From: a virus | Strand: one strand, 5' to 3' | DNA: 29,762 nt | IMG/VR virus record: IMGVR_UViG_3300042502_000160 | Coordinates: 1 to 29,762 of that record | In this document: positions 2,546 through 16,527 of the stretch, in pieces | How the letters are laid out: each line of letters begins with the position of its first letter | How positions within the stretch are numbered: position 1 is the stretch's first letter | Translations under genes and position numbers: made by a program | The notes under the pieces: model-generated | The model's input: the letters and a program-made list of their open reading frames with translations, nothing else | Database searches by the model: none | What the model was told of the DNA's origin: nothing

Positions 2546-2758
2546 ATGACACCAAAAGAAAAAGCAGAAGCAATAGTAAAAAAGTATAGAAATCCATTTA
2601 ACAGAGATGGATGTATACCGCCAACCGAATATTTATTTTTAAACATGGCAAAACAGTGCGCTTTAATTGCAGTTGATGAGATACTTGACACAGGCGCATT
2701 AGGTAATTTATTAGAAGAATACTATTTGAAAGTTAAAAACGAAATACAAGAGTTATGA
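2546..2758 (+). CDS. Small hypothetical phage protein, 70 aa
   Basis: Starting at ATG 2546 (MTPKEKAEAIVKKY...), the product is a 70-residue mostly helical protein with a charged N-terminal helix, a middle segment PTEYLFLNMAKQCALIAVDE and an acidic C-terminus. Small proteins of this pattern are common in Bacteroidota phages, but I know of no function. An upstream in-frame start at 2522 would lie inside the helicase gene and is less likely. It overlaps the next gene by an ATGA junction (2755-2758). Confidence 0.6.
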   Translation: MTPKEKAEAIVKKYRNPFNRDGCIPPTEYLFLNMAKQCALIAVDEILDTGALGNLLEEYYLKVKNEIQEL

Positions 2759-3054
2759 TTGAAGAATTAGAACACTTACTCGCGCAGACATCAACAAGCG
2801 CAATTATTGGAAGCCTTAAACACGAATTAGATAGGCTAAAATCAGTTGATGAAGAAAAAGCAAAGCCATTTATTGAAGGCTCATCTAAACACTTGGAAAG
2901 CATGAAGCACGTATTATTACATCTGATGATATGCGAAAAGGAAATACGCAACCTTATAAGCCAAAACTACAACTTACACCGTGAAAACATGGAGCTGTCA
3001 AGAAAAGTTGAGCAGTTGGAAAACACGAACACTCATTTAATCAAAGGAATATGA
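2755..3054 (+). CDS. Hypothetical coiled-coil protein, 99 aa
   Basis: The protein is almost entirely helical. From about residue 60 to the C-terminus the spacing of leucine, isoleucine and asparagine fits a heptad coiled coil (MELSRKVEQLENTNTHL), so it probably oligomerises. There is no DNA-binding motif or membrane segment. It is joined to both neighbours by ATGA overlaps, which implies coupled translation with the downstream DNA methyltransferase. Its function cannot be inferred from sequence. Confidence 0.55.
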   Translation: MIEELEHLLAQTSTSAIIGSLKHELDRLKSVDEEKAKPFIEGSSKHLESMKHVLLHLMICEKEIRNLISQNYNLHRENMELSRKVEQLENTNTHLIKGI

Positions 3055-4121
3055 AACATAAATTTAATTATAATTGGACATTAAAAGATGCTGTTTTTAC
3101 TAAAGATAAGGGTAAGGTATTTAGCTGTTTTGCCTGTGGTGGTGGATCAACAATGGGATATAAATTAGCTGGATTTGATGTTATTGGCCACAATGATATT
3201 GATAAAAAAATGATTGAGGTTTATAAAGTAAATCATAATCCAAAATATTCTTTTTTAGAATCAATTACAACTTTTGCCAAAAGAAAAGATTTACCAAAAG
3301 ATTTATACAATTTGGATATTTTAGATGGTTCGCCACCTTGCTCAAGTTTTTCAATGGCCGGCAATCGTGAAAAAGATTGGGGAAAAGAAAAGGTGTTTCG
3401 AGAAGGACAAGCGGAACAAGTTTTGGATACATTATTCTTTGATTTTATTGATCTTGCAAAAGAATTACAACCAAAAGTTGTTGTTGCTGAAAATGTAAAA
3501 GGTTTGCTTTTAGGAAATGCAAAAGAATATGTTAGAAAAATTTACATTGCATTTGATCAAGCTGGATATTATTGCCAACACTTTTTATTGAATGCTTCAA
3601 AAATGGGAGTACCTCAAAGGCGAGAAAGAGTATTTTTTATTTGTTTAAGAAAAGATTTAGCAAATCAGTTTTTACATTGGCAAGATATGTTTACACAAAT
3701 TCCAAAAATTGAAATGGAATTTAACGAAAAAGAAATTTTATTTAAAGAAATTTATGAAAAAAATGCAAAAGGTGAACAATCAATCCCGCCTTCTTATGGT
3801 AATATGTGGGATAAAAAAATAATATCTGAATACTCAATGAGTGATACAACTATGCGTGTTGAAGGAGTTGATAAATTTTTTTCAGTTAAATATCTTCATT
3901 TGAATAAAGTATTAAACACAATTACTGGTAGTGAAAAAAATATGTTATATGATGAAAAAAGAACATTATCTAAAAGCGAATTATGTAAAGGTGGGAGTTA
4001 TCCAAATGATTACAATTTTTTAGATGTAAAATCTGGTTATCTTATTGGAATGAGTGTGCCGCCTGTAATGACCGCACAAATAGCAAGTAATATTTATGAA
4101 CAATGGTTAAGTAAGTTATGA
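3051..4121 (+). CDS. DNA (cytosine-C5) methyltransferase
   Basis: This 356-residue enzyme would transfer a methyl group from S-adenosylmethionine to cytosine C5. Canonical motifs appear in order: motif I FSCFACGGGS (24-33), motif II NDID (48-51), motif IV GSPPCSSFS with catalytic C97, motif VI ENV (147-149), motif VIII QRRER (189-193), motif IX-like RTLSKSELCKGG, and motif X GMSVPP near the C-terminus. The target-recognition domain lies at roughly 200-320; its specificity cannot be read. No restriction endonuclease is adjacent. Base composition is far poorer in G+C than its neighbours (14/60 in the line at 3241), a sign of separate acquisition. ATGA overlaps join it to both flanking genes. 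It may protect phage DNA or supply 5mC to the dioxygenase at 9470. Confidence 0.92.
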   Translation: MKHKFNYNWTLKDAVFTKDKGKVFSCFACGGGSTMGYKLAGFDVIGHNDIDKKMIEVYKVNHNPKYSFLESITTFAKRKDLPKDLYNLDILDGSPPCSSFSMAGNREKDWGKEKVFREGQAEQVLDTLFFDFIDLAKELQPKVVVAENVKGLLLGNAKEYVRKIYIAFDQAGYYCQHFLLNASKMGVPQRRERVFFICLRKDLANQFLHWQDMFTQIPKIEMEFNEKEILFKEIYEKNAKGEQSIPPSYGNMWDKKIISEYSMSDTTMRVEGVDKFFSVKYLHLNKVLNTITGSEKNMLYDEKRTLSKSELCKGGSYPNDYNFLDVKSGYLIGMSVPPVMTAQIASNIYEQWLSKL

Positions 4122-4630
4122 GATGTAAAAACTGCAAAGAAAAATTTGAGCCTTTAAGATTCAACCAAAAGTACTGCATGAACGAGGAGTGTATTCGTGT
4201 TTGGATTGAAACCGAAAAGCAAAAGCAATGGAAGGCTAAAAAAACACGGTTGAAAAAAGAACTAATGTCATTACAGGACTACCTTAAAATAGCGCAACAA
4301 GTATTTAACAAGTACATCCGCGAACGTGACAAAGGAATGAGCTGTATATCATGCGGAAATGAGCCTAAAAAAGCAAACGCTGGACATTATTTTTCACAAG
4401 GCGGTCATTCAAACGTCAGGTTTAACGAAGACAACGTACACTTACAATGTGAACACTGCAATAGTTTTCTCAGCGGTAATTTACTGAACTACCAAATAGG
4501 AATCGAAAAGCGTATAGGCGGTAAACGGTTACTTGCATTGCATGAAATTGCGCATGAAACAAAGAAATGGACTATTGACGAACTAACTGACCTGATCGCA
4601 ACCTACAAAGCCAAGATAAAAAATCTATAA
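4118..4630 (+). CDS. ninG: NinG/Rap-like recombination protein
   Basis: This 170-residue protein matches lambda NinG (Rap). Its N-terminal zinc cluster is C3/C6/C20/C25. A helical region leads to YIRERDKGMSCISCG (66-80, C76/C79). The HNH-like half follows with AGHY (88-91), VRFNEDNVHLQCEHCN (100-115) and SGNL. Rap is known as a nuclease-like factor acting on recombination intermediates such as Holliday junctions. That fits the neighbouring annealing protein and exonuclease genes. It overlaps the methyltransferase by ATGA. Its base composition returns to the genome average, in contrast with the gene before it. Confidence 0.85.
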   Translation: MRCKNCKEKFEPLRFNQKYCMNEECIRVWIETEKQKQWKAKKTRLKKELMSLQDYLKIAQQVFNKYIRERDKGMSCISCGNEPKKANAGHYFSQGGHSNVRFNEDNVHLQCEHCNSFLSGNLLNYQIGIEKRIGGKRLLALHEIAHETKKWTIDELTDLIATYKAKIKNL

Positions 4631-4667
4631 TTTTTTTACTAAAATGTATAACGTATTAAAAATGTTG

Positions 4668-4675
4668 TATATTTG
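4668..4675 (+). promoter_or_regulatory. Candidate Bacteroidota -7 promoter element
   Basis: TATATTTG (TAnnTTTG consensus) stands in the 68-nt gap after ninG, 23 nt before the ATG at 4699. Its immediate context (TTGTATATTTG) resembles that of the box at 645. No confident -33 element is visible. It could drive the recombination genes. Confidence 0.4.
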
Positions 4676-4698
4676 ACAAAACGAAAAACATAAACAGA

Positions 4699-5202
4699 AT
4701 GAAAAGACCAAAAAAAGGAATTGCAGAACGGTACTTGAATGTATTGATCGATATTCATGATTCGTTAAAAAAAGACGAAACAAGCGTTTTAAAAGAAATA
4801 TGCTTAAAGCATAAAGCAAGTAATTCAATAAGCACGGCAATAAGAGAATTACACCTTATTCGTTATTCGATTAATGGTAACCGTTGGATTGCTGAATACC
4901 CTACCTTGCAAATGGCTGAACAAGTACGTGAATTAATCGCAAGTAAAGCACCAAAAAGAACACTTAAACAAGTTCAACCATCATTTGAATGGGAAAAGCC
5001 ACAACCAAAAACCGAAACAGTTGTAAATTACGAATACAAGCCACAACCCGACACAAGCCTTGTAAGCGAGTTTATCGATCACCATGAACAATCACTATTA
5101 CCGCCACCAGTAAAGCGCGTTAAAACGGCTAAAATCGATGTAAAAACGCGTATGTTTCAGTTGCGCATCTTTGGACTTAATTTATTTACAGTAAAATACT
5201 AA
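4699..5202 (+). CDS. Hypothetical protein with possible winged-helix N-terminus, 167 aa
   Basis: The first 70 residues are helical. ICLKHKASNSISTAIREL followed by a short strand-turn-strand (LIRYSINGNRWIAEYP) could form a winged helix; this is inference only. A long proline- and glutamine-rich linker (about 85-145) follows. The protein ends with TRMFQLRIFGLNLFTVKY, an aromatic-hydrophobic tail of a kind I have seen on Bacteroidota phage proteins. It is the first gene after a promoter-like box and lies 4 nt upstream of the annealing protein, so it may regulate or assist recombination. Family not recognised. Confidence 0.55.
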   Translation: MKRPKKGIAERYLNVLIDIHDSLKKDETSVLKEICLKHKASNSISTAIRELHLIRYSINGNRWIAEYPTLQMAEQVRELIASKAPKRTLKQVQPSFEWEKPQPKTETVVNYEYKPQPDTSLVSEFIDHHEQSLLPPPVKRVKTAKIDVKTRMFQLRIFGLNLFTVKY

Positions 5203-5206
5203 AATC

Positions 5207-5776
5207 ATGACACGAAAAAAACAAGAATTAGACGCATTCGAGCAAGTACTTGAGGACAAAAGCCAACGTAATAACATCTATTTTAAGTTATGGAAGGCAA
5301 AACAAGAGATCGGTAAGGTAGTTAAGGGTAACGATAACCCGTTTTTCAAATCAAAATACGCTGATTTAAACAGCATTTTGGAAGCGGTTGAGCCATCACT
5401 ACACAAATACGAATTGATTATATTACAGCCTTGTATTGGTAACATGGTAGAAACACAAATAATCGATTGCGAAACTGGTGATATGGTTACATCTTCATTG
5501 ATACTTCCGGAAATAAGCGATCCCCAAAAACGAATTGCTGCCGTGACGTACTTTCGCAGAGCAAGTTTACAATCACTTTTGAGTCTTCAGGCGATTGATG
5601 ACGATGGCAATGAAGCGCGTAAGGGTGCAGTGGAAAACAAGCCATTAATTAACAATGAAAGATTTCAAAAAGCATTGTCGGCTATTGCAAGAGGTGAGGC
5701 ATCAATCAATGACCTAAAAAACAATTTCACGCTTACCGCTGAACAACAGCATGACCTTAACATGATTGATGTATGA
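5207..5776 (+). CDS. erf: Erf-family single-strand annealing protein
   Basis: This 189-residue protein carries the ERF family core: NPFFKSKYADLNSI at 44-57, the strand region around 68-100, and TYFRRASLQSLLSL with DDDGN at 114-135. Erf proteins form rings on single-stranded DNA and anneal complementary strands in phage recombination. The partner here is probably the 5'-3' exonuclease, whose start overlaps this stop by ATGA (5773-5776). The C-terminal 45 residues are variable. A full-length start at 5207 is supported by the 4-nt gap from the gene before it. Confidence 0.85.
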   Translation: MTRKKQELDAFEQVLEDKSQRNNIYFKLWKAKQEIGKVVKGNDNPFFKSKYADLNSILEAVEPSLHKYELIILQPCIGNMVETQIIDCETGDMVTSSLILPEISDPQKRIAAVTYFRRASLQSLLSLQAIDDDGNEARKGAVENKPLINNERFQKALSAIARGEASINDLKNNFTLTAEQQHDLNMIDV

Positions 5777-6561
5777 ATCCAAAAGTAGTATTATTTGATG
5801 CTGATTCGCTTATTTATCAGGCGATGTATAGAGTGGTAACATTCGGTGAATTACGCGAAATGATCCGTAAAGGTGAAACACGCTTTTCAATTGAGTTGGA
5901 AATCTTACAGCGCGGTTATGATCGCTTTGAAAAGATCGCCTTTGATATACTAAATGAGATTGAAGGCGAATACCAAACATCGGTTGTAAAGTACTTTTTC
6001 ACCAAGTGTAAGCGTAACTTCCGGAAAGATGTTGATCCAACGTACAAAGCCAACCGTAAATCTAACCGATGGGTAAATGAATTGCGATCTTATCTATTGG
6101 ATTATTTAGATGGTTCTTTTGCATCTGATGAATACGAGGCTGATGATCTTATCTATTTTAACACGCAATTGATGAACCAATACGATTACATTATATGTTC
6201 AATTGATAAAGACCTTAAACAAATACCCGGCATTCATTACGATTACTACCAAATGAAGGTAAAGGATGAAAACGGTGAGTATATGGTTGATCAATTTGGA
6301 CAATTCGTAAAGGTGCGCAAAGGGTTTAGATATGTTACGGAATCAGAAGCTGAAATGATGCAGTTTACAATGATGCTAACGGGCGATGTAAGCGACAATG
6401 TGAAAGGCGTACATGGTATAGGTCAAAAGAAAGCAGAAAAGCTGTTACAGGACAAGAATACGTTTGGTAAAGTACGCGCTGTATGTGAGGCTTACAAGAA
6501 CGAATCTGATAATTGGAAGGAACGGATAAGAAACAACAAGAAATTAATGATTTTCCACTAA
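5773..6561 (+). CDS. FEN-type 5'-3' exonuclease
   Basis: This 262-residue nuclease has the acidic residues of flap endonuclease/5' exonuclease enzymes: D9 and D11 (FDADSL), the R/K cluster with YKANR at 91-95, E120/E122/D124/D125 (SDEYEADDL), D145/D147 (SIDKDL), and D205/D208 (TGDVSDN). A helix-hairpin-helix segment VKGVHGIGQKKAEKLL follows at 210-225. It would resect 5' ends to give single strands for the Erf-like protein and may remove RNA primers. It resembles T7 gp6 and PolA N-terminal domains in layout. The coupling with erf argues for a two-protein recombination module. Confidence 0.87.
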   Translation: MNPKVVLFDADSLIYQAMYRVVTFGELREMIRKGETRFSIELEILQRGYDRFEKIAFDILNEIEGEYQTSVVKYFFTKCKRNFRKDVDPTYKANRKSNRWVNELRSYLLDYLDGSFASDEYEADDLIYFNTQLMNQYDYIICSIDKDLKQIPGIHYDYYQMKVKDENGEYMVDQFGQFVKVRKGFRYVTESEAEMMQFTMMLTGDVSDNVKGVHGIGQKKAEKLLQDKNTFGKVRAVCEAYKNESDNWKERIRNNKKLMIFH

Positions 6562-6571
6562 AACACGAACT

Positions 6572-6808
6572 ATGGAACAAGTAAAACAGACAGCAGTAGA
6601 ATTTGCATTTGAAGAATTAAATAAATGGAGAATAGAAAATTTTGGTGAAGGTGCTTTAATTGGAATACCTCAAGAAGTCTTAGATAAAGCCAAACAAATG
6701 GAGAAAGAGCAGATAATGGATGCTTTTAATGATGGCGTAAATGATGAATGTATAGGAGGAAGTAAATTACCAGAACAATACTACAACGAAACCTTTAAAT
6801 CAGAATAA
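6572..6808 (+). CDS. Small hypothetical phage protein, 78 aa
   Basis: This acidic helical protein of 78 residues has a middle segment AKQMEKEQIMDAFNDG and a C-terminal EQYYNETF. Both are patterns I have seen in short proteins of Bacteroidota phages whose function is unknown. There is no membrane or metal-binding motif. Its DNA is A/T-rich compared with the exonuclease gene. The leader AAAACACGAACT has no Shine-Dalgarno sequence. Confidence 0.55.
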   Translation: MEQVKQTAVEFAFEELNKWRIENFGEGALIGIPQEVLDKAKQMEKEQIMDAFNDGVNDECIGGSKLPEQYYNETFKSE

Positions 6809-6834
6809 AATGTAAAGAAATAACTTAACAAATT

Positions 6835-7059
6835 ATGGCAAAAGTAACAATAGAATTTGACACCATTGAAGACAAACACGAAATGGAGATGTGTTTGAAC
6901 GGCATGAAATGGTATTCGTTAGCATGGCAATTTGACCAGTATTTAAGAGGTAGGCTGAAATATGAAGATAATCTACCTGAAGATGCTTACAAGGCACTAG
7001 ATGAGGCAAGGGATAAACTGTACGAGTTACTTCGTGAGGATGGGTTGACGTTTGATTAA
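6835..7059 (+). CDS. Small hypothetical protein, 74 aa
   Basis: The 74-residue acidic protein reads as strand (KVTIEFDTIED), helix (EMEMCLNGMKWYSLAWQFDQYLR), then helix (ALDEARDKLYELLRE). The layout recurs in small phage proteins that I cannot name. It ends directly before the three-way-junction RNA candidate at 7062, whose left arm begins 2 nt after the stop, so the structure may also act as this transcript's 3' end. Confidence 0.55.
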   Translation: MAKVTIEFDTIEDKHEMEMCLNGMKWYSLAWQFDQYLRGRLKYEDNLPEDAYKALDEARDKLYELLREDGLTFD

Positions 7060-7061
7060 CT

Positions 7062-7131
7062 AAGTAGGCAGCAAGTGTTGGGGTGTCACCCAGCAGAGGT
7101 AATAAACAACTACCTTTTGAGTTGCCTACTT
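7062..7131 (+). ncRNA. Candidate structured RNA with three-way junction
   Basis: AAGTAGGCAGC (7062-7072) pairs with GTTGCCTACTT (7121-7131) over 11 bp with one G-U. Two hairpins nest inside it. TGTTGGG/CCCAGCA (7076-7082 with 7089-7095) has loop GTGTCA. AGGTA/TACCT (7097-7101 with 7111-7115) has a 9-nt loop. Three stems meeting at one junction in a non-coding gap is unlikely by chance and looks like a cis-regulatory or small RNA fold. A further pairing, TATACCC (7132-7138) with GGGTGTA (7184-7190), could extend it. No T-tract follows, so it is not a simple terminator. Folding energy was not computed. Confidence 0.45.
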
Positions 7132-7306
7132 TATACCCGATAAGGTAATCAAGTATAGAAAAACGCATAATTTATACCTTTCAGGGTGTAGCATTAAAAA
7201 ACAAGAAAAAACAGTATTTAATTAAGGTTATAGCTTGATAATAAAAAAAAATCATCAGGCTAATCGCCGAAAAACCGATTTAGTAATCAAATAATAACAA
7301 AGTAAA
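7132..7306 (+). other. Rest of the 7060-7306 non-coding gap
   Basis: No open frame of note is seen. The segment is A-rich, with an A9 run (7243-7251) and a hairpin, CTAATCG (7260-7266) with CGATTTAG (7276-7283) with a one-base bulge, about 25 nt before the DUF3127 gene. The hairpin could be an operator or leader structure. No good TAnnTTTG box was found. Confidence 0.4.
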
Positions 7307-7711
7307 ATGGAACAATTAAAAGTAAGTGGACAAGTATTTAAAGTAAGCGAGAAGATCGTGAAATCAGAGAAATTCACATTTAGAAACCTATGGCTAACGC
7401 ATGGCGATAAATACCCTCAGACAATCGAAATACAATTTGTAAATGACAAATGCGCATTATTGGATAGCGTAACACCTGGTGATAAAGTAACTATTGGCAT
7501 TAACTTAGATGGTCGAATATGGAATGGGCAAGATGGGCAAAAGGTATTCAACACAATCAAAGGTTGGTCGATTGAAATGGCTGGACAAGTGAAGCAAGAA
7601 AACACGCAACCATATCAAGAGCGCATGATGGAAAGTACGTCACAAAAGATTGAACGATTAAGAATTTTAGATCAATTAACGAAAGAAGGGGATAACCTTT
7701 TACCATTCTAA
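7307..7711 (+). CDS. DUF3127-like OB-fold, probable single-stranded DNA-binding protein
   Basis: The 134-residue product has the DUF3127 pattern over residues 1-93. A leading strand (LKVSGQVFKV) is followed by KFTFRNLWL, YPQTIEIQFVNDKCALLDSV, the turn GDKV, and a final strand pair where GRIWNG and VFNTIKGWSIE match the family's 'RgreWng..fn.l..w.i'. This family is mostly seen in Bacteroidota and predicted to be an OB-fold. The tail is polar and disordered and ends in GDNLLPF. It is probably the phage's SSB substitute, since no canonical SSB is seen. An acidic/aromatic C-terminal tip is typical of SSBs; here the tip is D-N-L-L-P-F. Confidence 0.7.
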   Translation: MEQLKVSGQVFKVSEKIVKSEKFTFRNLWLTHGDKYPQTIEIQFVNDKCALLDSVTPGDKVTIGINLDGRIWNGQDGQKVFNTIKGWSIEMAGQVKQENTQPYQERMMESTSQKIERLRILDQLTKEGDNLLPF

Positions 7712-7713
7712 GC

Positions 7714-7923
7714 ATGAAAGCAAATGATCTTATTAACATCAATAACAAAGTGCGCCAATTGATCAAAGCGCATTTACAAGCCAATAACATGACCTTAACG
7801 GCTTTTGCTAAGGCTACCGGAATACATCAGGCTCAACTTTGGGTGTACATGAATGAAAAGCAAAAAGGACTTCATACATCAACACTTGAAAAAATAGGTA
7901 ATTATTTAGCGAAAAAAGTTTAA
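7714..7923 (+). CDS. Small XRE/Cro-like HTH DNA-binding protein, 69 aa
   Basis: A Cro/C1-type helix-turn-helix spans about residues 22-66. MTLTAFAKATGIHQAQLWVYMN forms helices 2-3, and STLEKIGNYLAKKV the closing helices. It lies 2 nt after the DUF3127 gene, so the two are cotranscribed. A Cro-like role at one of the palindromes in this genome is plausible but not shown. No divergent repressor gene is visible, so a lysogeny switch cannot be claimed. Confidence 0.75.
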   Translation: MKANDLININNKVRQLIKAHLQANNMTLTAFAKATGIHQAQLWVYMNEKQKGLHTSTLEKIGNYLAKKV

Positions 7924-7932
7924 ATTGCAATT

Positions 7933-8214
7933 ATGATCATGCCGCCGAGCAAAATGGAGATACGTAACTTACTCGCTGATTTCGCGAAAGATGATATGTA
8001 CGTTGTTTTCACGCATGATTATGAAGATTACATTTTAACCGGTTTCAAGATTACAGGGGAAGGTTTGCGCCTTCCTTTGTTGTTAAATTACCTTAGAACC
8101 AATCACATCCCAATACTATCGGTAAAGGCATCACCCGTGCCTCATGAGTGGTACGAAGATGAGTGGATATTGTGGTGGGATATACTGATCATGAAGTACG
8201 GTACGGAAAATTGA
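7933..8214 (+). CDS. Hypothetical protein, 93 aa
   Basis: This 93-residue protein has an alternating hydrophobic central strand region (YVVFTHDYEDYILTGFKI), a leucine-rich helix and an aromatic acidic C-terminus (EWYEDEWILWWDILIM). It is not predicted to cross a membrane because charges interrupt the tryptophans. ATGs at 7933, 7939 and 7954 are all in frame; the first is used because it sits 9 nt after the HTH gene's stop. Family unknown. Confidence 0.5.
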   Translation: MIMPPSKMEIRNLLADFAKDDMYVVFTHDYEDYILTGFKITGEGLRLPLLLNYLRTNHIPILSVKASPVPHEWYEDEWILWWDILIMKYGTEN

Positions 8215-8216
8215 AT

Positions 8217-8224
8217 TATATTTG
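8217..8224 (+). promoter_or_regulatory. Candidate Bacteroidota -7 promoter element
   Basis: TATATTTG again, 2 nt after the stop of the previous gene. Transcription would begin around 8230 and run into the long stem and T-tract at 8253-8313, giving an RNA of about 85 nt. No -33 element is clear. Confidence 0.35.
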
Positions 8225-8252
8225 TCAATAGTTTATGTTTAACGGTTAGGTT

Positions 8253-8313
8253 GAAGGGGGCACATTTGACATTCTACTCTATAAGCACCGCACAGTTAGC
8301 CCCCTTCTTTTTT
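8253..8313 (+). terminator. Terminator with long loop, or 3' end of a small structured RNA
   Basis: GAAGGGGGC (8253-8261) and GCCCCCTTC (8299-8307) form a perfect 9-bp stem with a 37-nt loop, followed by T6 (8308-8313). The flanking GGTT (8249-8252) could also pair with AACC (8314-8317) across the T-tract. The loop is far longer than in ordinary terminators. As at 645-748, a TATATTTG box and an AACGGTT motif (8241-8247; 655-661) precede it, so it may be a second copy of the same type of small RNA. Confidence 0.5.
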
Positions 8314-8332
8314 AACCAAAAACACGCATGAT

Positions 8333-8563
8333 ATGAAAGAAAAATTGAAAGTTGCATTTGGAATTACATTACTACCGTTATTCGCGGCAATGTACTACAT
8401 GGATAAGATAATACTACTATTCTTGCCTCACTTACCACAGGAGAGTGTTCAAAAATGGTTCGGATCGCAAAAAGAAATGGTCAGTAGCACTATAAGAGTT
8501 GTTGCCTTTTGGGGTGCAGTTTGTATTTACTATGTAATTACATGGATCATTGGACTTTTTTAG
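8333..8563 (+). CDS. Small membrane protein with two transmembrane helices (possible holin)
   Basis: The 76-residue product has a positively charged start (MKEKLK) and hydrophobic segments at about 8-35 (FGITLLPLFAAMYYMDKIIL) and 52-75 (IRVVAFWGAVCIYYVITWII), with a short polar loop between them. Size and topology fit a holin, but many phages carry small membrane proteins of other kinds, and no endolysin gene is adjacent or elsewhere in the window. It is the first gene after the hairpin at 8253-8313. The next frame overlaps its 3' end. Confidence 0.6.
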   Translation: MKEKLKVAFGITLLPLFAAMYYMDKIILLFLPHLPQESVQKWFGSQKEMVSSTIRVVAFWGAVCIYYVITWIIGLF

Positions 8564-8774
8564 CACATACGATAAGATTGAGCGCGTTTACTCAACGAAT
8601 TACGACAAATGTATCATTGGCTATTGTCAAAACACGCTAATACCTATCTATTCGGCTAATAAACTAATCAAAGTACTAAGGAAAGAGGAACACTTAGAAC
8701 ATTACGATGCAATTGATTTCATCACTAACCACATGAGGCATGATGATGCTATAATCTGCATTGATTATGAATAA
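8550..8774 (+). CDS. Hypothetical protein, 74 aa (TTG start)
   Basis: The frame opens with TTG at 8550, overlapping the membrane-protein gene by 14 nt; no in-frame ATG lies upstream in a plausible place. The product is a small, mildly acidic alpha/beta protein with two cysteines near residues 20-26 (KCIIGYCQN), a helix NKLIKVLRKEEHLEHYDAID and an ending DDAIICIDYE. No family is recognised. The next small gene's ATG overlaps its 3' end by 8 nt, which supports a continuous operon. The start is uncertain. Confidence 0.5.
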   Translation: MDFFSTYDKIERVYSTNYDKCIIGYCQNTLIPIYSANKLIKVLRKEEHLEHYDAIDFITNHMRHDDAIICIDYE

Positions 8775-8898
8775 GTCAAGAACACGCATAATAGACAAAT
8801 TACATAGGCAACAAAGACGTAAACAACGCGCAACGTGCCAAATAAAGAAATGGATGTACGAAAACACGGCATTCGAAAGATTAAACCCCGAGGAATGA
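8767..8898 (+). CDS. Very small basic protein, 43 aa
   Basis: ATG 8767 opens a 43-codon frame whose TGA forms an ATGA junction with the ParB-like gene (8895-8898), and it overlaps the preceding gene by 8 nt. The first 30 residues are strongly basic (RIIDKLHRQQRRKQRATCQIKK), consistent with nucleic-acid binding, and the rest is neutral to acidic (YENTAFERLNPEE). Gene-end geometry on both sides is the main evidence. The same DNA was an alternative longer N-terminus for the ParB-like protein, which I reject. Confidence 0.5.
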   Translation: MNKSRTRIIDKLHRQQRRKQRATCQIKKWMYENTAFERLNPEE

Positions 8899-9473
8899 AG
8901 ACAGAAAAAGTAAAGATCAGCGAAATACACGCAAACAAGAATAATCCACGAATAATCAAAGACGATAAATTCCGCAAATTGGTTAAGTCAATACAAGACT
9001 TCCCACAAATGCTTGAAATACGCCCTATTGTAGTGGATGAAGATAATATTGTATTGGGCGGAAATATGCGTTTAAAAGCGTGTAAAGAAGCCGGATTAAA
9101 AGAGGTATACATCGTAAAGGCGGATAACCTTACAGAAGAACAGAAACAAGAATTCATAGTAAAAGATAACGTGGGTTTTGGTGAATGGGATTGGGATAGT
9201 TTAGCAAATGAATGGGATGCTGAAAAGTTAGAAGAATGGGGGTTGAATGTTCCCGAATTTTCAGGGGATCTTGATTATTCAATTCTTGACGATGAAGACC
9301 TTGCAGATGATTTATTGGATATGGCTAACGGAGTAAAGAAAGCAATACAAATAGAATTTGAAGCTGAACATTACGAAAGCGCTTATGAACTTGTTAAATT
9401 TTGGAGGGAACGTGAAGCATATGTAGGTGGGATGATAATGGAATATTTGAAAGCTGAAAAAGAAAAGTTATGA
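8895..9473 (+). CDS. ParB/sulfiredoxin-fold (ParB-like nuclease domain) protein
   Basis: From ATG 8895 the 192-residue product begins MKTEKVKISEIHANKNNPR, the classic lead-in of phage ParB N-terminal domains. The box II-like motif GGNMRLKAC follows at 55-63, then a helical region EEQKQEFIVKDN and EWDWDSLANEWD, which in phage proteins follow the ParB domain. The acidic C-terminal third lacks the HTH of chromosomal ParB, so plasmid-style partition is unlikely. Phage ParB-like domains are often linked to DNA methylases or other modification genes. Here the gene is joined by ATGA to a dioxygenase. A start at 8835 would cover the 43-aa gene and is disfavoured. Confidence 0.75.
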   Translation: MKTEKVKISEIHANKNNPRIIKDDKFRKLVKSIQDFPQMLEIRPIVVDEDNIVLGGNMRLKACKEAGLKEVYIVKADNLTEEQKQEFIVKDNVGFGEWDWDSLANEWDAEKLEEWGLNVPEFSGDLDYSILDDEDLADDLLDMANGVKKAIQIEFEAEHYESAYELVKFWREREAYVGGMIMEYLKAEKEKL

Positions 9474-10258
9474 AAAGGATTGATTTAATACAACAAAAAC
9501 ACGAAGTAAAAATTGGTGATATATGCGGTACAATAGAACCCAATATAACTGAAGATTGTATTTTTTATGATAATGACAAGCCAGTAGGATTTTATATTAA
9601 AGATATTTCTAAATATTCAGAAAAAGCGGCAAAATTAGCAGATATTGCAGATAAAGAATTAAGAAGTAAAAACGTTCCTAAAAGCACAATGAAAAGGTCA
9701 AGTGGTTTTGGAGATGGAAACACGGAAAAAGAAGTTTTACAATATTCGACTATTTTAGGCGGTGTACCACCAAAACCACATATGAAAAGACCCTATGCAA
9801 CTATATCAAGTGTTCACGGTGTTAAAACTGCTCAAACGTTTATAAAAGCTATGTTATTATTAGCTTACGAAAGTGAAAAAATAATACAAGAATTAACCCC
9901 TGAAATATACGAAAAGCAAAAACAAATATTTGAAGATAAGGTTGATAAAAAATGGACGTTTGGAAATTTATTTACAAGTTCAATTTCAAATTACAATATA
10001 TCAGCGCCTTTTCATCGAGATGCTGGTAATATAGAAGGTTGTGTAAATGTTATTATAGCTAAAAAACAAAATGCAACTGGAGGGAATACAACGGTTCCTG
10101 ATTACGGTGCTACAATGGATAGCTGCGATAATTCAATGTTAGTTTATCCAGCTTGGAGAAATGTTCATGGGGTTACACCGATTATACCGACACACGAGGG
10201 AGGATATAGAAACTCACTTGTATTCTATCCTTTAAAAGCATTTGTAGGACTTAAATAA
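9470..10258 (+). CDS. 2-oxoglutarate/Fe(II) dioxygenase-like protein, possible TET/JBP-type DNA base oxidase
   Basis: The 262-residue product carries, in its C-terminal third, a dioxygenase double-stranded beta-helix signature. H182-x-D184 (APFHRDAGN) is the metal-binding pair. GGNTTVPDYGATMD (204-217) and a strand SMLVYPAW follow. H233 (NVHGVTP) is the distal metal ligand and R247 (GYRNSLVFYP), 14 residues on, the 2-oxoglutarate ligand. Family knowledge: TET/JBP phage enzymes oxidise 5-methylpyrimidines in DNA with the same H-x-D...H...R order and a 'HG.xPI' segment. The N-terminal half is unassigned. Its DNA is very A/T-rich (14/60 G+C at 9541 against 29/60 at 10321), like the C5-methyltransferase gene. 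Substrate is inference; prolyl- or other 2OG hydroxylases are the alternative. Confidence 0.6.
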   Translation: MKRIDLIQQKHEVKIGDICGTIEPNITEDCIFYDNDKPVGFYIKDISKYSEKAAKLADIADKELRSKNVPKSTMKRSSGFGDGNTEKEVLQYSTILGGVPPKPHMKRPYATISSVHGVKTAQTFIKAMLLLAYESEKIIQELTPEIYEKQKQIFEDKVDKKWTFGNLFTSSISNYNISAPFHRDAGNIEGCVNVIIAKKQNATGGNTTVPDYGATMDSCDNSMLVYPAWRNVHGVTPIIPTHEGGYRNSLVFYPLKAFVGLK

Positions 10259-10275
10259 ACAACGAATAAACAACG
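10254..10275 (+). repeat. Perfect 11-bp tandem repeat before the small terminase gene
   Basis: AATAAACAACG occurs twice back to back across the dioxygenase stop and the leader of the next gene. It may only be an A-rich unstructured translation leader, as is usual before genes in these hosts. Confidence 0.6.
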
Positions 10276-10279
10276 AACA

Positions 10280-10633
10280 ATGGCAGGAAAAGGACAAATA
10301 GAACCACGTTGGCAACAAGGCGAAAGCGGAAACCCGAACGGAAGACCAAAAGGATCAAAAAACCGTAGTACAATAGCGCGGCATTGGTTAGAAGTTAATC
10401 AGAATCTAAAGAATCCATTAACTGGCGAGAATGAAACAATGTCGCAAGAGGATTTGATGACGTTGGCATTGATCAAAAAAGCGCGTGAGGGTGATGTACA
10501 CGCATATAAAGCATTAATGGATAGTGGATACGGTGCGCCTGTTCAGCAAGTAGAGCAGAAACAAACGAATATCGACCTTTCTCACCTTTCCACAGACGAC
10601 ATTGTTAACCTACTCAAAGATGATGAGCAATGA
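10280..10633 (+). CDS. terS: DUF5681-type small terminase subunit candidate
   Basis: The 117-residue protein starts with a glycine/asparagine-rich segment (QGESGNPNGRPKGSKNRS, about 14-31) that defines DUF5681. Helices follow, including a segment EDLMTLALIKKAREGDVHAYKALMD that resembles terminase small-subunit oligomerisation helices. Position directly before the large terminase, with the two frames overlapping, supports a role in recognising phage DNA for packaging. The GRPKGS motif is a typical minor-groove-type DNA contact. The family name is from memory. Confidence 0.7.
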   Translation: MAGKGQIEPRWQQGESGNPNGRPKGSKNRSTIARHWLEVNQNLKNPLTGENETMSQEDLMTLALIKKAREGDVHAYKALMDSGYGAPVQQVEQKQTNIDLSHLSTDDIVNLLKDDEQ

Positions 10634-11984
10634 GCATAAAGAAGCGGCTAAGGAATTACTTCGGCAAGAACTCGCAAGAAGGAGTTTCTATCATTTTTGT
10701 AGGTACTATGATCGCGATTTTGTACACGCGCGACCTTTTGTTAAAGACATTTGCGAGGCTTTTCAGGAGGTTGAGGATAAGAAAATAAAGAGTCTAAGCG
10801 TATCATTACCGCCAAGAGCCGGTAAGTCTTACATCACATCACTATTTTGCGCGTGGACGTTAGGCAAAAACCCTGATAAATCAGTCATGCGCAACGCGTG
10901 TACGGCTACATTATTTCTAAAATTCAGTTACGATGTACGTGCAATATTGAAGGATGAACGCTTTAAACGCGTGTTCCCGGATGTAAGCCTATCAGATGAT
11001 AAAGCCAATTTGCAAGGATGGAACACTAACCAATCAAAGCAAGTAGGTTACTTTGGTGCTGGTGTTGGCGGTACAATCATCGGTTTTGGAGCGAGTAATG
11101 TTGCGATCACGGATGATCTTTATAGAGGCATTGAGGATGCTTTAAGCGACACGGTAAACGATCGGATCATCCAATGGAAGGAATCAACGCATGACTCACG
11201 CTTTGAAACAGGATGCGCACGTATTGACATCGGAACACGTTGGTCGGTTAATGATGTAATTGGTCGAGGTATAAACGAAACCATATACGATAAGAGCATA
11301 ATCGTACCGGCATTAGATGATCAAGGTAACTCATTCTGCGAGGCTGTAATGACAACTGATGAGTACAAGCAAGTACAAAAACGAACTGCAAAAGAAATAT
11401 GGTTAGCCGAATACCAACAGCAACCTATTGACATTGAAGGTCGACTATTCAGTGATTACAAACGCATCAATCAAAAGGAATTTGACGAGTTTATAAGCAC
11501 TAACCAAGTTGAAGGTACACTGGCGTATATCGATGTGAGCGATACGGGAATGGATTACACTGCTATGGCTATCGCCGCAATAGTCAAGAATCAAACGTAC
11601 ATCGTGGATTATGTATTCAACCGAGACAATACCGATCTAACTATACCACAATGCGCCGCGTTACTAAACAAGTGGAACGTATCATATTGCCGTGTTGAAT
11701 CCAATAACATGGGTGCAATGTTTGCGCGTAACTTACAGAACCTAACCAAAACAAAGATCCTTCAGGTTGCCAATACGACAAATAAGATTACACGCATTAT
11801 TATGCAGTCGGCATTCATCAGCCAACGGATGCAATTTGTAGTAAAAGAAGAACAACAATGCCTTACATTTATTGAAAATATGCTCTCATTTAGCAAAGAA
11901 GGCAAGAACAAGCATGACGATGCGCCTGATTGTTTGGCAGGGTTAAGTTTATTTTTGCAATCTATGTTTAAAAATTTATCGTAA
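10620..11984 (+). CDS. terL: Terminase large subunit (packaging ATPase/nuclease)
   Basis: The 454-residue protein has Walker A LPPRAGKS (about 63-70), Walker B NVAITDD (about 160-166) and a C-terminal RNase H-like nuclease domain, with DVSDTG (about 304-309) carrying the first catalytic aspartate and HDDAPDCLAGL (about 432-442) the last. It cuts concatemeric phage DNA and drives it into the prohead through the portal. ATG 10620 (or 10623) is chosen. A TTG at 10602 in the same frame would extend it further into the small-subunit gene. The stop lies inside a TAACTTTG promoter-like box, so portal transcription may begin anew here. Confidence 0.92.
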   Translation: MMSNEHKEAAKELLRQELARRSFYHFCRYYDRDFVHARPFVKDICEAFQEVEDKKIKSLSVSLPPRAGKSYITSLFCAWTLGKNPDKSVMRNACTATLFLKFSYDVRAILKDERFKRVFPDVSLSDDKANLQGWNTNQSKQVGYFGAGVGGTIIGFGASNVAITDDLYRGIEDALSDTVNDRIIQWKESTHDSRFETGCARIDIGTRWSVNDVIGRGINETIYDKSIIVPALDDQGNSFCEAVMTTDEYKQVQKRTAKEIWLAEYQQQPIDIEGRLFSDYKRINQKEFDEFISTNQVEGTLAYIDVSDTGMDYTAMAIAAIVKNQTYIVDYVFNRDNTDLTIPQCAALLNKWNVSYCRVESNNMGAMFARNLQNLTKTKILQVANTTNKITRIIMQSAFISQRMQFVVKEEQQCLTFIENMLSFSKEGKNKHDDAPDCLAGLSLFLQSMFKNLS

Positions 11985-12014: not shown

Positions 12015-13447
12015 TGAATCTGAACTTCTGGGAGACTTTTTTCGGTATAGATCAAAACCGACAAGATAGGTACATCAACCAATGGAATAGAATATTCCCC
12101 GTAATGAATCAAATGTGGGGTGTTAAGAACGCCGTATGGATTGATACTAATAACGCGTGGCAGCATTACTTAGATATACCTGAATTACGCGCTGTTATAG
12201 ACAAACGTGCCTCAATGATGGCTTCTAATAAACCAGTGTTATTGGATGCTGATGGTAATGTAGTTGAGAACCATTGGTTCGTTGACCTTACTAAGCAACC
12301 AAATCCAATCCAAAGTTGGTCGGATGTTGTGTATTCATTCAGCGTTAATGATGCGCTTTACTCTAATGCGTTTGGTTACTGTCCAAAGCGATCATTTGAC
12401 ATTAGGAACTTACTCGTTCCATTACCTTCAAATCGTATTCAGTTAGATACATCAGGCAAGACCTTAAAGCAAATGGATGAGGGTGGCATGATCAACCGAT
12501 ACAAGTTCAGATATGATGATGATAAGATAGAGATAATCGAGGTTGAGGACATGATCTATATTACAACGGCTGATGGGATGAATATCCTTAAACCGATTTC
12601 ACGTATAGATTCATTGAAATATCCGTTATCAAACATCAAAGCATCGTATCATAAGCGCAATGTACTACTTGAAAACATAGGTGCAATAGGTATCTTATCA
12701 GCGCAAAAGAGCGACATGGGAGGTGCTATTCCAATGACACCTGAAGAGAAAACAGCCATTCAAAAGGATTGGTACAACCGTTCTAAGGATGAATTATTGA
12801 TCACCGAAAGCCAAGTTAATTGGACACCGATGTCCTATCCAACTAAAGACTTACTACTATTCGAGGAATTGAACGCTGACAAAATGGCTATCATTGACGC
12901 ATACGGAATGAATGTAAACCTATTCAGCAATGAGAAAGGCTCGACATTCAGCAACGTAAAAGATAGCGTTCGCATGGTTTATACAGACACGATCATCCCT
13001 GAAACGCAACAGATGTATGATACAATCGCGCATCAGTTAGGGTTAAAGGAGCAAGGCTATTCGATCAAAGCGGATTTCTCGCACTTACCGGTACTTCAGG
13101 ATGATGAGCAAACCAAAGCATCTGCGGATAAGGTTAAGGCTGAAACGTATAACATCCTTTTACGCGATGGAGTGATTACTCAGGAGCAATACGCAATGGA
13201 TTTCGGTATAGAATTACAACAAGCATCACAACAAGATGCGAAAGCGGCGGCATTGGCACAGGCACAAACAGAATTGAAAGGTACTGTCGGTGGATTAGAT
13301 GGTATTATCAACCTAAACAACGCTGTAACCGCTGGATTAGATCGCAACACGGCTGTAAATATCTTAATCAATTACTATGGTTATGATCCAACAACGGCAA
13401 ACGCGATGGTAACAACAACACAAATTACTCCAAATGAAGGATTATAA
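12014..13447 (+). CDS. Phage portal protein (HK97-type)
   Basis: The 477-residue protein lies between terminase and prohead protease, the standard portal place. It shows portal-family features: an N-terminal region with ELRAVIDKRASMMASNKPV (about 59-77), a middle WTPMSYPTKDLLLFEELN, and NLFSNEKGSTFSNVKDSVR, which matches the 'G...s.yaN.e.a' segment of HK97 portals. A C-terminal A/Q-rich tail follows. It forms the dodecameric ring through which DNA enters and leaves and to which neck proteins attach. No catalytic residues are expected. The gene overlaps the protease gene by 14 nt. Confidence 0.85.
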   Translation: MNLNFWETFFGIDQNRQDRYINQWNRIFPVMNQMWGVKNAVWIDTNNAWQHYLDIPELRAVIDKRASMMASNKPVLLDADGNVVENHWFVDLTKQPNPIQSWSDVVYSFSVNDALYSNAFGYCPKRSFDIRNLLVPLPSNRIQLDTSGKTLKQMDEGGMINRYKFRYDDDKIEIIEVEDMIYITTADGMNILKPISRIDSLKYPLSNIKASYHKRNVLLENIGAIGILSAQKSDMGGAIPMTPEEKTAIQKDWYNRSKDELLITESQVNWTPMSYPTKDLLLFEELNADKMAIIDAYGMNVNLFSNEKGSTFSNVKDSVRMVYTDTIIPETQQMYDTIAHQLGLKEQGYSIKADFSHLPVLQDDEQTKASADKVKAETYNILLRDGVITQEQYAMDFGIELQQASQQDAKAAALAQAQTELKGTVGGLDGIINLNNAVTAGLDRNTAVNILINYYGYDPTTANAMVTTTQITPNEGL

Positions 13448-14200: not shown

Positions 14201-15394
14201 ATGGAAAATTTAACACCTGAGCAAGTAGTTGAGAAAATAAACGGACTACTTGACGAAAAAATGGGCGCAACTGCTACAAAAAGCGAGGTTGAAAGCCTAA
14301 AAACAGACTTGGAAGGCTTCAAATCTCTTGAAGTAAAGAGCCAAGAAATTGAAAAAGCAATCGCAAGAATGGAAGGGCGACTTGAGGCAATGGCTGAGAA
14401 AGCTGTTGAACCGCGTTTTGTACCTAAATCTGTTGCTGATGCAATCGTAAACGCTTATGTATCTAACATCGAAGCAATCAAAGATACTGCTGAAAAGGGC
14501 GGAATGCTTTCTTTGGATGTGAAAAGCACTACAATCAACGCTGATTATGATGGTGTTGTTGCATTGTCTACATTGGAGCCGGGAGTTGACAACATCGCTC
14601 GACCAGTAATCAAAGTTCGTAACGTAGTTAATACGGGTACAACTTCATCTAAGTTCGTTGTTTACATTTCGCAAACAGCTAACACATCTGCATCATGGGT
14701 AACTGAAGGTGAAACAAAACCAACTTCAAACCCAGGTTATGAAGAGGTATCTGTTGAGGTTAAGAAAGTTGCTTCAACTGTTAAGGTATCAAAAGAAATG
14801 TTGGCTGACCTTGCTTTCGTTCGTTCAGAAATCAATGCTGACCTTATGGCTGGACTTGACCAAGCGTTCGAAGATGCACTTATCAATGGTGCTGGTGGTA
14901 CTTCATTAAATGGTTTACTTGGATTCGCTCAACCGTTTGCGGCTGGTACTTTCGCGGGAACTATTCCAGCGGCTAATGTATCTGATGTTATTCGTGTTGC
15001 TAAAGCACAAATTCAAGGTGCTAACTTTGAGCCTACTCACGTATTGTTGCACCCTGAAGATGCAGCTAAAATTGAGTTGACAAAAGCAACTGATGGTGGT
15101 TACACTTACCCAGCGTTTTGGGATCGCAACATGATGTTGGCTGGATTGACTGTTGTTACTTCAACTAACATCGCTCCTGACACGTTCCTTGTTGGTGATA
15201 TGAGCAAATCAAACGTTCGTATTCGTGAAAACATGAACTTACAAGTAGGTTATGTTAATGACGATTTCCAACGTAACATGGTTACTATCTTGGCTGAAAT
15301 GAGAGCAGCGCATTATGTTAAGAACAACCAAGTTGAGGCGTTTGTAACGGGTGATTTCACAACTGCAATCGCAGCGTTAGATTCGGCTGATTAA
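14201..15394 (+). CDS. Major capsid protein (HK97 fold)
   Basis: From ATG 14201 the protein has 397 residues. Residues 1-70 are a charged coiled-coil delta domain (scaffold-like, expected to be cleaved). The HK97-fold part follows with typical segments: STLEPGVDNIARPVIKVRN, SASWVTEGETKPTSNP, VEVKKVASTVKVSKEMLAD, an alanine/glycine-rich LINGAGGTSLNGLLGF and a P-domain-like VLLHPEDAAKIELTKATDG. Codon choice (CGT, AAC, GCT, GGT) differs from the neighbouring genes, as expected for a highly expressed product. A start at 14159 lies inside the protease gene and is rejected. A terminator hairpin follows 8 nt after the stop. Confidence 0.92.
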   Translation: MENLTPEQVVEKINGLLDEKMGATATKSEVESLKTDLEGFKSLEVKSQEIEKAIARMEGRLEAMAEKAVEPRFVPKSVADAIVNAYVSNIEAIKDTAEKGGMLSLDVKSTTINADYDGVVALSTLEPGVDNIARPVIKVRNVVNTGTTSSKFVVYISQTANTSASWVTEGETKPTSNPGYEEVSVEVKKVASTVKVSKEMLADLAFVRSEINADLMAGLDQAFEDALINGAGGTSLNGLLGFAQPFAAGTFAGTIPAANVSDVIRVAKAQIQGANFEPTHVLLHPEDAAKIELTKATDGGYTYPAFWDRNMMLAGLTVVTSTNIAPDTFLVGDMSKSNVRIRENMNLQVGYVNDDFQRNMVTILAEMRAAHYVKNNQVEAFVTGDFTTAIAALDSAD

Positions 15395-15750: not shown

Positions 15751-16527
15751 ATGCTTTTAGATTTAGACGATTTCACGGGTAAATATGAATTGCATACAGG
15801 AATGTATGACCAAGCAAAGCTGTTGGAGTATATTCAGATATATGAAGAGCAGTATTTGATCGATTTGTTCGGTGCATCTTTGTATGATGATTTCATCAAC
15901 GACTTGGATAACAACAATTATCCTGAATCGCCTAACTTTCAAAAGGTATTTGATCCTTTTCATTTGGACAACACTTCTAACGGTTTCCTTACATCATACA
16001 ACACGTATAACAATGTGATAGTATCAAAGGGCATTTTAGATATGCTCAAAGGCTTTATTTACTTTGAATATGTGAAAGATACGGCTAACCAAATCACATC
16101 GCAAGGGCAAAAGATTCCTCAAGGGGAAAACAGCCTAACTGCTACTACTTTGTACAACATGATGTACACGCGATATTGGGAGGCTTTAAAGACGTATAGA
16201 GCCATTCAATGGTACATTTACCGCTATCAATTACAAGCTGGTCAGGTGTTAAATTACGGCGTTTTAAACATTGGTAATAGTTACAATGATGGAATTTATT
16301 TTCCGGTAGGTGGCACAGGCACAGGATTCAAAATCAATTGTTTTTTTGATCCAAGCGGTTCGATAGGTGATATTGCTGTTCTCGATGAGGGTATAAATTA
16401 TTCATCAGGTGATGAAGTAACACTTATTGGAGGTAATAATTCAGCTAAGTTGTTGATTGTAAACGTGGGTAAAGGCGATTATTCAAAATGGAATGGTGTT
16501 GCTAAACAAATGGCTTACTGGTTATGA
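15751..16527 (+). CDS. Head-tail connector-like protein (DUF6712-type) with an inserted beta domain
   Basis: Residues 1-165 are helical in the manner of phage head-completion/connector proteins: DQAKLLEYIQIYEEQYLIDLFG, ILDMLKGFIYFEYVKD, and YTRYWEALKTYRAIQWYI. The C-terminal end YSKWNGVAKQMAYWL returns to that pattern. Between them (about 178-240) sits a glycine-rich segment with GGTGTGFKIN, GSIGDIAVLDEGINYSSGDE and VTLIGGNNSAKLLIV. This is the 'GG.GYs.GD' type of beta repeat found on exposed phage virion proteins. The protein should join the portal ring to the neck. Next gene overlaps by ATGA. Confidence 0.6.
   Translation: MLLDLDDFTGKYELHTGMYDQAKLLEYIQIYEEQYLIDLFGASLYDDFINDLDNNNYPESPNFQKVFDPFHLDNTSNGFLTSYNTYNNVIVSKGILDMLKGFIYFEYVKDTANQITSQGQKIPQGENSLTATTLYNMMYTRYWEALKTYRAIQWYIYRYQLQAGQVLNYGVLNIGNSYNDGIYFPVGGTGTGFKINCFFDPSGSIGDIAVLDEGINYSSGDEVTLIGGNNSAKLLIVNVGKGDYSKWNGVAKQMAYWL

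Follow-up and report, generated by a model that had tools for sequence, protein, structure and literature searches.

Oxidation of 5-methylpyrimidines in nucleic acid is the established activity of TET/JBP enzymes, and two described phage systems are close to the locus considered here. Rhodococcus phage Tonitrus carries ParB-like, TET-like, amino-acid:DNA transferase and kinase genes at its left end before the terminase, in a five-gene set described as a thymine hypermodification system (PMC11955845). The phage enzyme SpCmoX (PDB 8YF3) adds a carboxymethyl group to cytosine C5 using carboxy-S-adenosylmethionine (Cx-SAM), with an arginine that replaces the usual asparagine and binds the Cx-SAM carboxyl group; many CmoX contigs also carry ParBc genes, and fusions of ParBc domains with DNA methyltransferases are common, for purposes unknown (PMC12783734). 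Here, we analyse the IMG/VR virus record IMGVR_UViG_3300042502_000160 (29,762 bases, full length; hereafter the window), which encodes a TET/JBP-type dioxygenase and an enzyme of the C5-cytosine methyltransferase (C5-MTase) type. An earlier note on this DNA had read the two as a pair making and oxidising 5-methylcytosine (5mC). We favour, with a probability of about 0.58, two independent modification genes. That is, the TET gene would belong to a mobile cassette (ParB_N, optional tailoring genes, TET and terminase small subunit, TerS), in which TET most likely converts thymine to 5-hydroxymethyluracil (5hmU) and ParB_N probably positions the enzyme, while the C5 enzyme would be a separate CmoX-like orphan lying before NinG.

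The window protein is a real TET/JBP-type dioxygenase. It matches Tet_JBP above the curated Pfam cut-off (Table 1), and in an alignment of 39 sequences the iron ligands His182, Asp184 and His233 and the 2-oxoglutarate (2OG)-binding Arg247 are invariant. The H-x-D, H, R order read by the earlier note holds with all metal residues retained, and the same residues occur in the isolate homologues. Asn187, which we take to be at the position of the base-contacting Asn of TET2, is likewise invariant. The AlphaFold2 model (mean predicted local distance difference test score, pLDDT, 87.5) has TET2 (E 7e-12), CcTet, CMD1 and NgTET1 as its top Foldseek matches in the PDB, followed by FTO/AlkB. A PDB sequence search with the protein, as a single sequence and as a profile, gave no usable match; only the fold search gave one. 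The window TET thus shares profile, catalytic residues and fold with NgTET1, TET2, CcTet and other phage TETs, but the phage family is compact (about 260 amino acids, aa), is linked to ParB and terminase genes, and has a substrate that is a prediction from context. Scanning the genomes of bacteria and archaea turned up no close relative. The enzyme probably oxidises bases in the phage's own DNA.

Phage TETs circulate in databases as 'queuine tRNA-ribosyltransferase' (PHROG 6059 and RefSeq, for example NC_022061, NC_047987 and NC_020847). We regard this label as a misannotation, since both Pfam and the fold point to Tet_JBP. Synechococcus phage S-CBWM1 encodes a longer TET-like protein (478 aa, L214:3729-5165; related loci are cited by L numbers) annotated as an SNF2 DNA repair protein; the genes downstream of it are of nucleotide-sugar type (phosphatase, thymidylyltransferase).

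By gene order, the real partner of TET appears to be the adjoining ParB_N protein, which the earlier note did not mention. TET loci run ParB_N, zero to four genes, TET, a small ORF (open reading frame) at the terminase position, and the terminase large subunit (TerL). ParB lies upstream of TET in 79 of 83 loci, and the other four are cut off. The intervening genes encode an FkbM methyltransferase, a TET-associated glycosyltransferase (TAGT, PF20691), or a set made of a GATase, an amino-acid:DNA transferase (ADDT; PF18724, 68 bits) and a P-loop kinase, joined in some loci by a GNAT. Of the 58 distinct TETs, 20 lack a tailoring gene; FkbM accompanies 17, the transferase set 11 and a glycosyltransferase 9. 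On the TET tree the type of tailoring switches 19 times, against a minimum of 4. Kinase and amino-acid:DNA transferase genes (aGPT-PPlase type) occur in the cassettes of about 15 relatives and in Tonitrus and are absent from the window, where searches including tblastn found no tailoring enzyme, as the earlier note had said. One locus encodes a 301-aa protein between ParB and TET (L034:4158-5063) that matches neither Pfam nor PHROG and may be a further tailoring enzyme.

The same order is found in isolates (Prochlorococcus phages MED4-184 and MED4-117, Mycobacterium phage KayaCho, Microbacterium phage MementoMori and Gordonia phage CaiB), whose TETs, with that of Tonitrus, are 25-54% identical to the window's. 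The Prochlorococcus phages MED4-184, MED4-117 and P-HS2 read ParB, FkbM, TET, small ORF, TerL and have the 54% identical TET; they differ from the window in the FkbM gene between ParB and TET, and MED4-184 and MED4-117 lack a C5-MTase. The order in Tonitrus is similar (ADDT at 81.6 bits, Ploopntkinase3 at 170.6 bits), but its TET is 25% identical to that of the window, which has neither kinase nor transferase. The cassette evidently moves as a module, because ParB, TET and TerS of the window are mostly 73-95% identical to those of L003-L008, whose TerL and portal are unrelated.

A sister phage (record G176; 35,037 bp; pieces L300 and L301) is circularly permuted with respect to the window and aligns with nearly all of it, mostly at 87-97% DNA identity, yet lacks both genes. 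Window positions 2979-4114 correspond to 72 bp in the sister, where a 99-aa ORF (L301:1559-1858) leads straight into NinG, and PF00145 has no match in the sister record. Positions 9245-10328 correspond to 924 bp that hold the rest of a ParB_N-N6_N4_Mtase fusion (PF01555, 75.1 bits). Residues 1-136 of the window ParB align with the ParB portion of that fusion at 96% identity, and similarity ends there; the window ParB stands alone, with a separate TET as its enzyme. Several further breaks in the alignment are small or lie in variable genes (757-977, 6812-7257, 13121-13433, 16230-16473 and, in the tape-measure region, 19775-22010). The two junctions are about 5 kb apart with a roughly 92% identical backbone between them, which argues for two acquisition events and against the earlier claim that the genes arrived together as a functional pair. 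Both genes were probably gained recently, and the second event resembles a swap of modification enzymes.

We infer gain in the window phage, not loss in the sister, because the G+C content at third codon positions (GC3) of both genes is outlying: 0.160 for the C5 enzyme (z = -4.05) and 0.171 for TET (z = -3.82), whereas the other 26 window ORFs of at least about 100 aa average 0.353 (standard deviation 0.048, minimum 0.280). Low GC as a trait of the TET family was ruled out, as TET and contig GC are equal in 45 relatives (mean difference 0.00), so the bias is local to the window phage. The earlier impression that the genes look foreign is borne out by these values and by the sister phage. Its coordinates, strand and reading frames for both genes were correct, and its G+C counts for the 60-base lines at 3241, 9541 and 10321 (14, 14 and 29) were exact on recount. 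It had also described both genes as joined to their neighbours by ATGA overlaps; this is true of the C5 enzyme on both sides and of TET towards ParB, whereas downstream TET is separated from TerS by a gap.

Nor do the two genes travel together in relatives. Besides the window, 136 virus or phage records carry a TET of the window family, and a C5-MTase occurs in 10 of them, in one of the 37 such records of at least 20 kb (window phage excluded) and in none of eight isolate genomes with TET; TET in turn occurs in 1/49 records of relatives of the window C5 enzyme. Many records are fragments, so that absence is weak for any single contig, but not for the eight isolate genomes. Among non-TET ParB relatives of at least 20 kb, 4/17 carry a C5-MTase outside the slot after ParB, so that in a rough comparison of unequal samples the gene is rarer with TET (1/37) than without it (Fisher p 0.03). 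Single loci show both directions of separation. L074 (TerL 66% identical) has TET and no C5-MTase between its 100-aa ORF and NinG, and both sequenced Prochlorococcus phages and the actinophages also have TET alone. Conversely, L108 (TerL 67% identical) has one C5-MTase before NinG and a second in the slot after ParB, and TET was not found there; L099 has the C5-MTase and a shortened ParB directly before TerS, and L121 and 48 of the 49 records of C5 enzyme relatives also lack TET. The earlier note had itself named relatives with one gene and not the other as evidence against a conserved pair. Its observations are confirmed, and its interpretation is partly supported. In the set of C5 enzyme relatives, Tet_JBP is matched, apart from the window phage, solely by the L154 record (G126, 43,516 bp; 14482-14886 on the minus strand, 45.9 bits).

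The C5 enzyme is complete and of the C5-cytosine type, as the earlier note had proposed, with a strong PF00145 match and the motifs IV (PPCSSFS at 95), VI (ENVKG at 147), VIII (QRRER at 189) and X (GMSVPP at 333). Its best PDB relative is 8YF3 (156 bits over nearly the whole protein), ahead of M.HaeIII (77). It shares the SPPC motif with CmoX (Cys97 in the window enzyme), and this motif is kept in 82/82 relatives. At the position of CmoX Arg350 and HhaI Asn304, however, it has Met334 (within GMSVPP), and Met stands there in 81/82 relatives; CmoX proper is recognized by Arg350 together with a nearby CmoA, and the window yielded no match to the CmoA family. With Met at the Arg350 position and CmoA unmatched, the window enzyme is CmoX-like but outside CmoX proper, and methylation is the default guess for its activity. 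A neighbourhood survey found NinG to be a frequent downstream neighbour of its family. Other members of this Met-for-Arg subfamily, all with SPPC, lie in L084-L163, L108 and L216-L258; L108 carries two (9737-10786 and 3748-4845).

The sister's fusion belongs to a wider pattern, in which the place between ParB_N and TerS acts as a swappable slot. We scanned with the L108 ParB and surveyed the 80 best matches, so the proportions describe relatives of one ParB and are not general. In 38 loci the slot is filled by a DPPY amino-methyltransferase that is fused to ParB, in 12 by a C5-MTase, in 7 by a Mom-type protein (PF25680 up to 179.6 bits), and in 3 each by TET, a TGT-like protein (PHROG 887) or a fusion of an ABC-type ATPase with a GNAT acetyltransferase; the remainder hold glycosyltransferases, other methyltransferases or other fusions, or are contig ends. 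The short TGT-like proteins (L253, L269 and L256) may insert 7-deazaguanine into DNA, and the ABC-GNAT fusions (L228, L233 and L236; PHROG 11143) are candidates for a new DNA-modifying enzyme. We found no description of a shared slot in the literature searched, which left out most subscription papers. We tentatively suggest, while rating it below an even chance, that ParB_N beside the terminase is a general adaptor: enzymes in the slot (TET, C5-MTase, N6/N4-MTase, Mom, TGT-like, glycosyltransferase or ABC-GNAT) would be swapped by recombination at the conserved ParB_N and TerS ends, ParB would guide their chemistry to the phage DNA in time with its packaging, and the TET version would be JBP-type hydroxylation of thymine in DNA by a phage.

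For the window, our preferred account is as follows. TET would hydroxylate a 5-methylpyrimidine in replicated phage DNA. We infer thymine, giving 5hmU, as the simplest substrate, because most TET phages lack a C5-MTase, those tested lack a dUMP hydroxymethylase and several carry enzymes that decorate 5hmU; annotators of Tonitrus gave the same thymine reading (PMC11955845). We rejected synthesis of hydroxymethyluracil at the nucleotide level, since neither the window nor any of 23 TET records matches the dUMP hydroxymethylase/thymidylate synthase family (PF00303). In the window phage, 5mC from its C5 enzyme may be a further substrate of TET. Some relatives would then decorate 5hmU by O-methylation, glycosylation, or a kinase with amino-acid:DNA transfer; the window phage has the bare ParB-TET pair, and plain 5hmU is its expected product because searches of the window gave no tailoring enzyme. 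ParB_N would position or load the slot enzyme on DNA, a role suggested by its constancy while the slot enzyme changes. TET would act late, after replication and possibly in step with packaging, as its place beside the terminase suggests. Modification may serve to evade restriction or to mark DNA for packaging. The C5 enzyme would be a separate orphan of the CmoX-like subfamily inserted before NinG. Several points weigh against this account. The invariant Asn (D+3 in all homologues) fits cytosine and thymine alike and does not discriminate between them, TAGT and FkbM enzymes could act on 5-hydroxymethylcytosine (5hmC) as well as 5hmU, and PHROG calls a TAGT relative a glucosyl-hydroxymethylcytosine (HMC) transferase. 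The host could supply 5mC, and the window phage and the clade of L043, L047, L050, L053 and L054 do carry a C5-MTase near TET.

The pairing proposed earlier, in which 5mC made by the C5 enzyme is turned by TET into 5hmC or a more oxidised product and the DNA thereby resists restriction, would account for two recent gains of similarly low GC3 in one phage, and one TET clade has a C5-MTase about 1 kb upstream. Burke and colleagues, in a 2021 study cited in PMC10273834, reportedly found that phage TETs oxidise 5mC from co-occurring phage C5-MTases. Yet the acquisition sites are separate, co-occurrence is rare both ways and not above that in non-TET ParB phages, and the C5-MTases seen with TETs belong to two different subfamilies (window type and L043 type); we consider the pairing rather unlikely. 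That the C5 enzyme is no methyltransferase at all, but transfers another group from an S-adenosylmethionine (SAM) derivative as CmoX does, unrelated to TET, seems to us unlikelier still: CmoX is its closest solved relative (PMC12783734) and the canonical Asn has given way to Met throughout nearly the whole subfamily, but the Cx-SAM-binding Arg and a CmoA match are both missing, and a Met beside the methyl group could simply suit SAM. If TET instead acted on 5mC set by host methyltransferases, or removed host methylation, no phage methyltransferase would be needed, in keeping with most relatives and with the action of TET/JBP enzymes on 5-methylpyrimidines. This we regard as a long shot, as the order is kept across cyanobacterial, actinobacterial and unknown hosts, all of which would have to offer suitable 5mC, and the linked kinase and amino-acid transferase enzymes belong to thymidine pathways.

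Table 1. Features of the window discussed in the text (positions within the 29,762 bases).
Feature	Position	Strand	Remarks
99-aa ORF	2755..3054	+	stop overlaps start of C5 enzyme via ATGA
C5-cytosine DNA methyltransferase-type enzyme, CmoX-like subfamily	3051..4121	+	PF00145 167.9 bits
NinG/Rap recombination endonuclease	4118..4630	+	PF05766 145.9 bits
ParB_N-domain protein, directly upstream of TET	8835..9473	+	PF02195 28.3 bits, cut-off 26.3
Exchanged segment (ParB tail, TET, TerS start)	9245..10328	+	blastn breakpoints against sister phage
TET/JBP 2OG-Fe(II) dioxygenase, 262 aa	9470..10258	+	PF12851 41.2 bits, cut-off 34.9
Small protein at TerS position, DUF5681	10280..10633	+	PF18932 58 bits; precedes TerL in relatives
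TerL	10602..11984	+	PF22530 35.6 bits, PF17289 27.3 bits; 66% identity with L074

If the adaptor idea is true, phages would possess a plug-in site where a single small ParB protein works with six or more base chemistries, and new DNA modifications could be found by reading the genes between ParB and terminase. Phages would then also carry out a JBP-type thymine hydroxylation, with a bearing on how TET/JBP enzymes arose. Isolates in which to test the idea exist among Prochlorococcus, Mycobacterium, Microbacterium and Gordonia phages.

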